From Natronosalvus caseinilyticus (GTDB taxonomy: Archaea > Halobacteriota > Halobacteria > Halobacteriales > Natrialbaceae): DNA of 64,000 nucleotides. Positions 22,337 to 25,282 of this stretch are shown in pieces. Position 1 is the stretch's first letter. Each line of letters opens with the position of its first letter. The translations under genes were made by a program, and so were the position numbers. The notes beneath the pieces were generated by a model that was given only the letters and a program-made list of their open reading frames with translations, made no database searches and was not told the origin of the DNA. The DNA lies in contig NZ_CP071596.1 of the NCBI RefSeq assembly GCF_017357105.1, positions 1,488,001 to 1,552,000 on the forward strand, in the 5' to 3' direction.

Positions 22337-22673
22337 GTTTTCTCGAGAACGCTCTCGACGTATTACGTCGTCGTACTCGCTAGTTCCCGTTTTCGCGCTC
22401 GTCAGTGACGTCTCGAGAACGGCCGGCGGTGATCACGAAACCCACGTGTAGGTAGGGTCTCGCCGAGCGTCGCCACTCGAGGGCGTGAAAGCGTCGGTCG
22501 GCCAAAGTGGTGTGTCTGGTGTGGTGTTCTGCGGCGGCGGTGTGTCAGGGCCGCCGCAGGTGACCGACCGATGGTGTGTCGTGATTCGCGGTCGCGATTG
22601 CGTTAGTGTGTCAGTCGCGATTGGTGTGTCGTTTCGGCTCGAACGATCGAACGTCTGAACGGCTAGCCCCGCG
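22337..22673. other. Convergent intergenic region with GTGTGTC repeats
   Basis: These 337 bp separate the converging 3' ends of ncsA and ftsZ2. I see no credible gene. Features visible are five GTGTGTC copies (listed separately) and a GC-rich hairpin GCGGC...GCCGC around 22531-22558, which may help terminate one or both transcripts. Confidence 0.5.
22510..22630. repeat. Five GTGTGTC repeats downstream of ftsZ2
   Basis: GTGTGTC occurs at 22510-22516, 22540-22546, 22574-22580, 22606-22612 and 22624-22630, that is at intervals of 30, 34, 32 and 18 nt. TCGCGATTG is also repeated before the last two copies. Read on the minus strand these are GACACAC units in the ftsZ2 3' untranslated region. Confidence 0.6.
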
Positions 22674-23915
22674 TTAGCGGATGACGTCGACGCCGTTGTT
22701 CCGCTCAACCTGGTCGCGGCCGCCGTCGCTCTGAGCACCGAAGCTCGAACGCGAGCCCGAGTGGGAGTGCGAACTCGAGCGACGCCCGCCCGAACCCCGC
22801 TCCTGTGTCTGCGAGACGTTCTGACTCGCGTCGAAGTCCGCCTCGGTCACGCCCTCGAGGCTGGCGCGGGATTTGTCGGCCTGTTTCTGGGTACTCGGGC
22901 CGAGCACCTGCGCGCTCTGGACGCCGGTCATGATCGCCATGACCCGCACCTTGCCCTTGTAGCTCTCCTGGATCCGGGCGCCCCAGATCACGTTCGCCGA
23001 GGCCTCGAGGCGCTCGGTGATGTTGTCGGCGATTCCCTCGGCCTCCTTCAGCGTGAGGTCGGGGCCGCCAGTGATGTGGACCAGTCCGCCGGAGGCGCCG
23101 CGATAGTCGACGTCCAACAGCGGGTGGTTCATCGCGTCGCGGACGACCTCCTCGGTCTTGTTCTTGTCCTGGGTCTCCCCCACGAGCATCACCGCGACGC
23201 CGCCCTGGTTCATGATCGTGGACATGTCCGCGTAGTCCAGGTTGATCAGGCTCGGCTGGGTGATCGTCTCGGAGATGCCCTTGACGGTCTCGGCGATGAT
23301 CTGGTCCATCACCGAGAACGCCTTGCCGATCGGCAGATTCGGGACGTAATCGAGCAGCCGGTTGTTGTCCAGGACGATGATCGAGTCGGCCTGCTCGCGC
23401 AGCTTCTCGAGACCTTCCTCGGCCTTGACCGTGCGGGCGCGTTCGACGTTGAACGGCGTCGAGACCATCCCGACGACGATGGCGCCCTGCTCTTTGGCGA
23501 TCTTCGAGGCGACGGGAGCGGCACCGGTGCCGGTACCGCCACCCATGCCGGCCGTGACGAAAACGAGGTCCGCGTCGCCGAGGACCTCCTTGATCGTACC
23601 CTGGGCCATCTCGGTGGCACGCTCGCCCATCGAGGGGTCGCCGCCGGCACCCAGTCCGTTCGTGAGCGACTTGCCCACGAGGATCTTGGTGTCGGCCTCG
23701 ATCATCTTCAGGTGTTGCTTGTCGGTGTTGATCGCGATCGTTTCCGCGCCTTCGACACCGATGTTGTACAGCCGGTTGATTGTGTTGTTGCCGGCTCCAC
23801 CGCACCCGATGATGACGATTCGGGGCTCCCCGAACTCGTCGTCGTCGAGGGAGCCGTCCATGTTCTTGGCCTCTTCCTCAGCGTTTTCGAGGGCGTCTTG
23901 CACGATGTCCTGCAT
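22674..23915 (-). CDS. ftsZ2: Cell division tubulin homologue FtsZ2
   Basis: A 413-aa FtsZ. The GTP-binding signature [12 protein letters not shown], the N-terminal [16 protein letters not shown] and the T7 catalytic loop NLDYADM are intact. After the tubulin core, a variable Ser/Gly/Arg tail ends in [11 protein letters not shown]. The start [17 protein letters not shown] and the position directly after cdrS identify the FtsZ2 paralogue, which in Haloferax drives ring constriction while FtsZ1 scaffolds assembly. Only 2 bp separate the cdrS stop from the ftsZ2 ATG, so the two are one operon. SepF, its membrane anchor, is encoded at 57656. Confidence 0.93.
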
Positions 23916-23917
23916 CG

Positions 23918-24097
23918 TTACACCTTCGCCCAGCCGCGTTTACCCGGCTGTTCGTGGCGACCCTCGTACTGGTCGTTGATCATCTCTCGTACGGCCGAAC
24001 GGATAGCTTCGCTCCGGTTTGGAAACTCCCCCGTCTCGACCAGCTGTTCGACTTCTTCGATCTGCTGTTTCGGTATTCGCAGTGTCACACGCTCCAT
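23918..24097 (-). CDS. cdrS: CdrS, ribbon-helix-helix regulator of cell division
   Basis: A 59-aa protein, too short for usual gene-length cutoffs. It begins [20 protein letters not shown]: the beta strand VTLRIP followed by two helices ([27 protein letters not shown]) is a ribbon-helix-helix DNA-binding fold. It ends GWAKV just before ftsZ2. In Halobacterium the cdrS-ftsZ2 operon links this small regulator to control of division genes. Its promoter region contains the GTCTTAC array described separately. Confidence 0.9.
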
Positions 24098-24117: not shown

Positions 24118-24290
24118 GTAAGACGGTGCGCGCCCCTGTCAGACGCGGCGTGTCTTACACGTCGAATCGACCGACTGCGGCCGATTTCCGGGTGGCGTCC
24201 ACCCGCTGTAAGACAACCGTCTTACGCGACTGTAGCCAACAGGCTGGTAGGTATTAAAACTATCGGCGTCGGTGACCGTCTGTGTCTTAC
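24118..24290. promoter_or_regulatory. Array of GTCTTAC/GTAAGAC half-sites between cdrL and cdrS
   Basis: Five copies of a 7-mer in both orientations: GTAAGAC at 24118-24124 and 24208-24214; GTCTTAC at 24152-24158, 24219-24225 and 24284-24290. The pair at 24208-24225 forms a perfect inverted repeat with a 4-bp spacer (AACC). All lie in the 215-bp gap before cdrS-ftsZ2. Such short inverted sites suit ribbon-helix-helix dimers, so CdrL and/or CdrS are the likely binders. Confidence 0.65.
24251..24262 (-). promoter_or_regulatory. Probable TATA box of cdrS-ftsZ2
   Basis: On the minus strand this reads AGTTTTAATAC. Transcription would begin near 24225-24235, next to the inverted repeat at 24208-24225, which fits repression by blocking initiation. 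The resulting leader would be about 130 nt. Confidence 0.4.
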
Positions 24291-24312: not shown

Positions 24313-24930
24313 TCACGACTGATTCGACTCGAGCACGTCCGCTGCCGGCGTTCGACGCCCACAGCTCGGGCAGAACGCCCAATCCGATCGCACCTCGTCC
24401 CCGCAGTCACAGAAGACGCGGTGAGTCGCCTTCTCGCCGCAGTTGGGACAGAAGACGTGTTCGGACTCGAGTCCCGTCCCACACTGGCCACAGGCGTGCG
24501 CGCCTCGAGCGGGACGGTCCTCGACCGAACGCGCCGGTTGGTCTCGCGCCGATCCGGTTGAGGTGCTCGAGTGGTCGGCCGCGTGCGTTTCGCCATCCAC
24601 TGCCGGGGTGGCAGATTCGGTCTCGCGTGCGCGCGTCGCCTCGACACCCTCGAGCGCGATGGAGACGTTGACGTCCTGGCCGCTCGATGTGTGACGAGCG
24701 GACAATCGTTGTTCGAGCAGGGAGTCGATCCGTTCCTCGAGCAAGGCGTCGAGGCTGTCGTCCGGAGCGGCGGTACGAGCGTCGTCGGTCGGACGGGCGT
24801 CGACACCGTCTGTCGGCCGCTCGTCCAGGTACGCTCGGAGTGCCTCGCGCATGACCTCGCTCTTCGAGGCGTCGAAGGCCTCGAGTTCGGCGACGAGGTC
24901 GTCGTCCGCGCGGAACGTGATCTTTCCCAT
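24313..24930 (-). CDS. cdrL: CdrL, ribbon-helix-helix protein with C-terminal double zinc ribbon
   Basis: A 205-aa protein. The N-terminus MGKITFRADDDLVAELEAFD with SKSEVMREALRAYLDE is a ribbon-helix-helix DNA-binding domain. A linker (45-140) follows. Then come paired zinc ribbons: CGQCGTG...CPNCGEK and CDCGDE...CPSCGRR. This matches the long cell-division regulator CdrL, which in Halobacterium binds upstream of cdrS-ftsZ2. A TATA-like ATTATAAC on the opposite strand at 24951-24960, about 25 nt from the ATG, suggests a leaderless mRNA. Confidence 0.88.
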   Translation of the reverse strand: MGKITFRADDDLVAELEAFDASKSEVMREALRAYLDERPTDGVDARPTDDARTAAPDDSLDALLEERIDSLLEQRLSARHTSSGQDVNVSIALEGVEATRARETESATPAVDGETHAADHSSTSTGSARDQPARSVEDRPARGAHACGQCGTGLESEHVFCPNCGEKATHRVFCDCGDEVRSDWAFCPSCGRRTPAADVLESNQS

Positions 24931-25053: not shown

Positions 25054-25127
25054 CCGCTCTTAGCTCAGCCTGGTAGAGCAGTCGACTGTAGATCGACTTG
25101 CCCCCCGTTCAAATCGGGGAGAGCGGA
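25054..25127 (+). tRNA. tRNA-Tyr (GTA anticodon)
   Basis: A complete 74-nt cloverleaf. Acceptor arms CCGCTCT/AGAGCGG with discriminator A; D stem GCTC/GAGC; anticodon stem GTCGA/TCGAC with loop CTGTAGA, anticodon GTA; T stem CCCCG/CGGGG with loop TTCAAAT. There is no intron and no encoded CCA. The C1-G72 pair is the archaeal and eukaryotic tyrosine identity element, supporting the assignment. Confidence 0.96.
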
Positions 25128-25282
25128 CTCGTTTTCTTCGTCGAACGGATCACGTTCGACCGACAGGAGCGATTTCGATACCACGTCGTGTCCACGGCGA
25201 GTCGTCGATCCTGAAAGTGACTGCTCGAGTGCTCTCCCACGTGTCCAGATGCTACGCTTTTCAGATGGACGTTTACGGGCGA

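Follow-up and report, generated by a model that had tools for sequence, protein, structure and literature searches.

A GTCTTAC array at the cdrS-ftsZ2 promoter of Halobacteria as a putative ribbon-helix-helix operator derived from a CdrS array

A dense array of the 7-mer GTCTTAC (GTAAGAC on the opposite strand) lies ahead of cdrS-ftsZ2 in the 64,000-nucleotide stretch of DNA analysed here, which we call the window, and recurs at the same place throughout the Halobacteria. We consider it probable that this is a ribbon-helix-helix (RHH) operator array descended from one read by CdrS, with CdrL as its main occupant in genomes that encode it and with a second reader, most likely CdrS. The pairing of proteins with subsites, the sign of regulation and the transcription start given below are ones that we infer.

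The array and the cdrS-ftsZ2 promoter

The array is flanked by genes for two RHH regulators, as the first-pass annotation had proposed, with cdrL on one side and cdrS-ftsZ2 on the other, all on the minus strand. The cdrL gene (24313–24930) encodes an N-terminal RHH and a double zinc ribbon (DZR 1.2e-07; CdrL profile 3.6e-72). The CdrL matches to CdrL_M (3e-04) and RHH_1 (1e-03) both lie under the Pfam cut-off, the RHH_1 score of 19.4 bits being slightly short of 20.5. The 59-residue RHH regulator CdrS (23918–24097, minus strand) passes the cut-off for PF01402 (2.5e-08), and its neighbour ftsZ2 occupies 22674–23915 on the minus strand (PF00091 9e-45, PF12327 9e-36). An RHH operator array is expected to have a cognate RHH gene alongside, and here cdrS and cdrL both adjoin it. 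Two further features were seen nearby. A tRNA-Tyr gene at 25054–25128 is divergent from cdrL, and five of the eight GTGTGTC copies in the window lie on the plus strand within 121 bp (22510–22630), just past the 3' end of ftsZ2.

Five exact copies of GTCTTAC/GTAAGAC occur within 173 bp (24118–24290), and their positions were verified in the window sequence. Taken on the minus strand, from which cdrS is read, the start-proximal copy (24118–24124) is GTCTTAC at -27 from the cdrS ATG and the mid-leader copy (24152–24158) is GTAAGAC at -61. The predicted core operator (24208–24225, minus strand) is formed from half-sites at 24208–24214 and 24219–24225, and the 7-4-7 inverted repeat claimed for it is indeed perfect, reading GTAAGAC-AACC-GTCTTAC. 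The upstream copy (24284–24290, minus strand) is GTAAGAC on the cdrS sense strand and lies 5' of the BRE/TATA. The spacings first given for these sites (34, 56, 11 and 65) agree with the measured start-to-start distances. The leader also contains one CdrS-type 7-mer, GTCTGAC (24138–24144, minus strand).

It is the clustering that is enriched in the 64-kb window, and not the 7-mer itself, which has 7 matches there against 4.85 expected from dinucleotide shuffles. About 0.013 copies are expected in 173 bp, and the probability of finding at least five is about 3e-12, or about 2e-7 once every start position is allowed for. The chance rate of once per 8 kb originally quoted was a little too high, since in the shuffles a copy occurs roughly every 13 kb. 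The palindrome is unique in its own 4.2-Mb genome. Near-matches there are all sites with two mismatches, seven including the exact site compared with four for the reversed control, and we took these to be chance.

In a promoter profile of Halobacteria cdrS loci, anchored on the palindrome and numbered from it, a BRE/TATA occupies -40 to -26, T is conserved at -13, and positions -3/-2 form a pyrimidine-purine (Y-R) step. In the window this class-wide profile predicts the TATA box TTTTAATA (24252–24259, minus strand) and the BRE CGATAG (24260–24265, minus strand), and the conserved positions of the BRE/TATA and of the Y-R step lead us to predict transcription from 24227 on the minus strand. On this basis the palindrome is predicted to cover approximately +3 to +20 of the cdrS transcript, with a leader of approximately 130 nt. 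The proposal that the palindrome sits at the probable transcription start therefore gains support from a BRE/TATA 26–40 bp upstream and a Y-R step at the palindrome edge, with the start itself a predicted one. The array as a whole is upstream of cdrS-ftsZ2, in the promoter region that showed CdrL ChIP enrichment in H. salinarum (PMC7439475), as would be expected of a CdrL operator.

Conservation within and beyond the Halobacteria

We examined 194 Halobacteria genomes from 65 genera; these genomes are related, and the counts that follow are not numbers of independent events. All 194 encode CdrS. The palindrome, with a spacer of 4–5 bases, is present exactly once in 185 of the 194 genomes and in 62 of the 65 genera, and the reversed-control palindrome has no match in the 194 genomes. 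The remaining nine genomes have spacers of 2, 3 or 6 bases, or one altered half. In all fetched cdrS loci the palindrome lies approximately 85–155 bp ahead of the cdrS ATG. Among 113 distinct loci, the start-proximal 7-mer is exact in 107 (with the GTCTTAC orientation in 106), the mid-leader GTAAGAC is exact in 84 with constant orientation, and an upstream 7-mer lies within 80 bp in 90. Five copies are present in 55 of 80 named genome loci, four in 22 and three in 3; the H. salinarum locus has four exact subsites and one GTGAGAC. A leader GTCNGAC is found at +78 to +81 from the palindrome start in about 40 loci, and many Natrialbaceae retain GTCTGAC once in the leader, some with another ahead of the TATA.

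Lack of conservation in related genomes had been named as the observation that would count against an operator. We found the array kept across the class, beyond the Natrialbaceae, and this conservation supports the proposal that it may act as an operator array controlling cdrS-ftsZ2. Two unusual arrangements were seen among the loci. In L164 and L169 (genomes G060 and G134) a 2-base palindrome spacer places the subsite centres 9 bp apart, unusually close for RHH pairs. Haloferacaceae archaeon XH8 (CP132292.1) has two cdrS loci (L350 and L360) on one chromosome. Both carry the complete GTCTTAC array, spaced slightly differently in each, which suggests that the division operon was duplicated or that the assembly is at fault.

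The expectation that the same 7-mer would precede ftsZ1 did not hold. The ftsZ1 gene has instead a sister motif, GTCNGAC-N4-GTCNGAC, and we rejected a general cell-cycle role for the 7-mer given these dyads and the single full palindrome per genome. With at most one mismatch, the sister dyad lies upstream of ftsZ1 in 22 of 30 genomes, compared with 8 of 2000 background segments, and it is nearly always approximately 65 bp before the ATG, directly ahead of the BRE/TATA. The 18 sites bound by FLAG-CdrS in ChIP-seq of Hfx. volcanii include ftsZ1, dacZ, psmB and hisB (PMC8406309). We found an exact dyad upstream of hisB in a Haloferax-type genome (G112, locus L281), dyads with at most two mismatches at psmB in 4 of 4 Haloferax-type genomes (and at 0 of 8 psmA loci), and dyads in several dacZ promoters. 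The L281 dyad is flanked by hisB and a divergently read frame, which match a pair published as a CdrS ChIP target. Since GTCNGAC dyads sit at published CdrS targets, GTCNGAC-N4-GTCNGAC is very probably the motif that CdrS recognises, as judged from these target promoters. The motif reported for CdrS is symmetric and approximately 19 nt long (PMC8406309). The fifth base of the 7-mer is T in all profiled cdrS palindromes and G in CdrS target sites, so that the main array departs from the CdrS regulon at one base per 7-mer, though with one GTCTGAC in the leader.

Outside the Halobacteria we collected 18 cdrS loci from the same phylum, none of which was found to have CdrL beside cdrS; CdrL is reported only in Halobacteria (PMC7439475). 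The upstream regions of these outgroup loci contain 39 copies of GTCNGAC against 0.52 expected, and a single GTCTTAC. Of 118 distances between relaxed outgroup sites, 99 are whole multiples of 11 bp, a register that a row of CdrS-specific RHH dimers would need. We therefore favour descent of the haloarchaeal array from a CdrS array, of which it appears to be a rewrite that altered a single base in each subsite and loosened the spacing.

RHH operators such as those of Arc, CopG, MetJ and NikR are built from short palindromic or tandem subsites about one helical turn apart. The sites described here likewise consist of repeated dyad subsites, with centres 11 bp apart in the core and a strict 11-bp register in the outgroups. 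Two features set them apart from those operators: the spacing is loose in Halobacteria and strict in the outgroups, and two RHH regulators with two motifs one base apart would partition a single archaeal division circuit. Among archaea, the Sulfolobales too have RHH proteins connected with segregation or division, namely SegB and aCcr1 (PMC12284271, PMC7617429). The sequence read by SegB is TCTAGASTCTAGA, at numerous sites of which most are intragenic, a pattern that the window array does not show.

Candidate readers of the array

The predicted base-reading strands of the two proteins differ at a single position. CdrS has an invariant R3-T5-R7 and CdrL has K3-T5-R7 in 111 of 111 sequences, so Arg3 and Lys3 are each invariant here. 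Residues 3, 5 and 7 align directly with R3-T5-T7 of NikR, where Arg3, Thr5 and Thr7 presumably contact DNA bases. In H. salinarum the cdrS-ftsZ2 promoter was the only reproducible CdrL ChIP-seq peak (PMC7439475). That site is at the same locus and promoter region as ours, the array is present in that species, and one palindrome per genome fits one ChIP peak. CdrL is likely the occupant of the array. The first-pass annotation had named CdrL and CdrS together as candidates. The first stands, with a ChIP-seq peak only here in H. salinarum (PMC7439475), but the two are not interchangeable, as the ChIP-seq of Hfx. volcanii lists no CdrS site at this promoter (PMC8406309).

All Halobacteria have been stated to encode cdrL (PMC7439475). 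Our profile search found no CdrL in 8 of the 194 genomes, from seven genera and four families (G001, G002, G007, G026, G093, G136, G138 and G182; loci include L083, L097, L386 and L387), and these contradict the published universality. A cdrL gene hidden elsewhere in them was sought with a 12-sequence profile, which gave only weak matches of the zinc-ribbon or antitoxin type (best 1.5e-04, compared with approximately 1e-60 for a true CdrL). Six of the eight still have, close by, the tRNA-Tyr gene found next to cdrL in the window, so that cdrL was lost there rather than primitively absent; losses are counted by genus label and not from a tree. The operator was not lost with it. All eight genomes keep the exact palindrome at cdrS and the start-proximal site. 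CdrL is therefore not the sole reader, and another protein has to be keeping the array in place. CdrS is the leading candidate because it is present everywhere and matches the ancestral array.

Rival accounts give the array to CdrS alone or to CdrL alone. Autoregulation by CdrS, with GTCTTAC as a weaker subsite giving feedback above the CdrS levels that serve the regulon and with CdrL indirect or secondary, would fit the occurrence of CdrS in every genome, the match of the ancestral array to CdrS target sites and the persistence of the array without cdrL. We regard it as unlikely, though the strongest of the alternatives, given that FLAG-CdrS ChIP-seq returned 18 sites with none at cdrS (PMC8406309), that CdrL ChIP-seq does find the promoter (PMC7439475) and that the palindromes carry T where CdrS targets carry G. 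Somewhat less likely again is that CdrL is the only reader and that cdrL was lost too recently for its operator to decay. The exclusive CdrL peak (PMC7439475), the single palindrome per genome and the invariant Lys3 of CdrL against Arg3 of CdrS would all be explained; chance survival of the palindrome and start-proximal site in eight of eight genomes is nevertheless improbable, the retained tRNA-Tyr marks six of these as true losses, and outgroups without cdrL beside cdrS have arrays of the sister motif.

A third DNA-binding protein, neither CdrL nor CdrS, would account for the persistence of the array without cdrL and for the absent CdrS peak (PMC8406309). We think this improbable, as the likeness to CdrS sites and the CdrL peak would both become coincidences, and the weak RHH matches inspected in cdrL-less genomes are ordinary antitoxin-like proteins. 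Least probable is an RNA element, with the cdrS leader folding into hairpins through the palindrome and the 7-mers it contains, since, although most 7-mer sites are transcribed and mRNA and ribosome signals are decoupled for H. salinarum cdrS-ftsZ2 (PMC8303175), the mid-leader site varies or is absent in 29 loci that retain its would-be partner, variants such as GTAAAAC lack compensation, a full 7-bp hairpin is impossible with a 2-nt spacer, the ftsZ1 sister motif lies upstream of the TATA and hence outside the transcript, and the 11-bp phasing points to duplex DNA.

The reading that we prefer, CdrL as main occupant with CdrS as the likely second reader, has its own difficulties. Exact palindromes in eight cdrL-less genomes mean that its CdrL component cannot by itself explain the conservation. 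The CdrS ChIP-seq of Hfx. volcanii, which used tagged CdrS made from a plasmid under a different promoter, lists no cdrS peak (PMC8406309), and this argues against CdrS as second reader while CdrL is present. Spacers of 2 to 6 bases are also loose for rigid dimer-dimer contacts.

Proposed mechanism and significance

In the mechanism we propose, each GTCTTAC would be the subsite of one RHH dimer and the palindrome would form a two-dimer core on the predicted transcription start, where occupancy should hinder loading or escape of RNA polymerase. The site upstream of the TATA and the two leader sites would help the complex to load or to stay stable. The position of the core suggests repression, and the upstream site could support activation. 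Because ftsZ2 goes down when cdrS is deleted in H. salinarum (PMC7439475), the net effect may be something other than repression. As for cdrL, the deletion strain that has been published contained mutations at second sites, and its authors left it out of consideration.

In the ancestral state, CdrS itself would have read GTCNGAC subsites set in an 11-bp register. The main subsites would each have changed by one base in Halobacteria, from GTCTGAC to GTCTTAC, as the spacing relaxed. Where cdrL is present, CdrL would be the main occupant and set expression of the division operon separately from the remaining CdrS targets, where GTCNGAC is retained, while at least one further protein, most likely CdrS, would also read the array. 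It is quite possible, though we stop short of calling it probable, that the one-base rewrite of the array from GTCNGAC to GTCTTAC accompanied a second RHH regulator with Lys3 in place of Arg3, and that control of cdrS-ftsZ2 thereby passed from autoregulation by CdrS to CdrL. The 7-mer GTCTTAC is itself asymmetric, its halves being GTC and GTA. A CdrS-CdrL mixed dimer is therefore conceivable and may read the 7-mer with one half per protein.

The regulatory link from CdrL to cdrS-ftsZ2 is already published. The main text of that report (PMC7439475) gives neither a motif nor the older array, and the putative operator is defined here. A search of the open-access literature turned up no description of the operator sequence, of how it relates to the CdrS motif or of its survival in genomes lacking CdrL, and these, together with the ancestral form, appear to be new; subscription journals could hold the motif.

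The timing of division in archaea that use FtsZ is poorly understood, and the regulators known so far, which include CdrS and CdrL, are few. The DNA code linking them has hitherto been missing. With the putative operator, the sister motif and a proposed ancestral state in hand, the wiring of division becomes testable by single-base changes, and the near-universal single palindrome offers an unusually clean natural case of a circuit handed between two related proteins.
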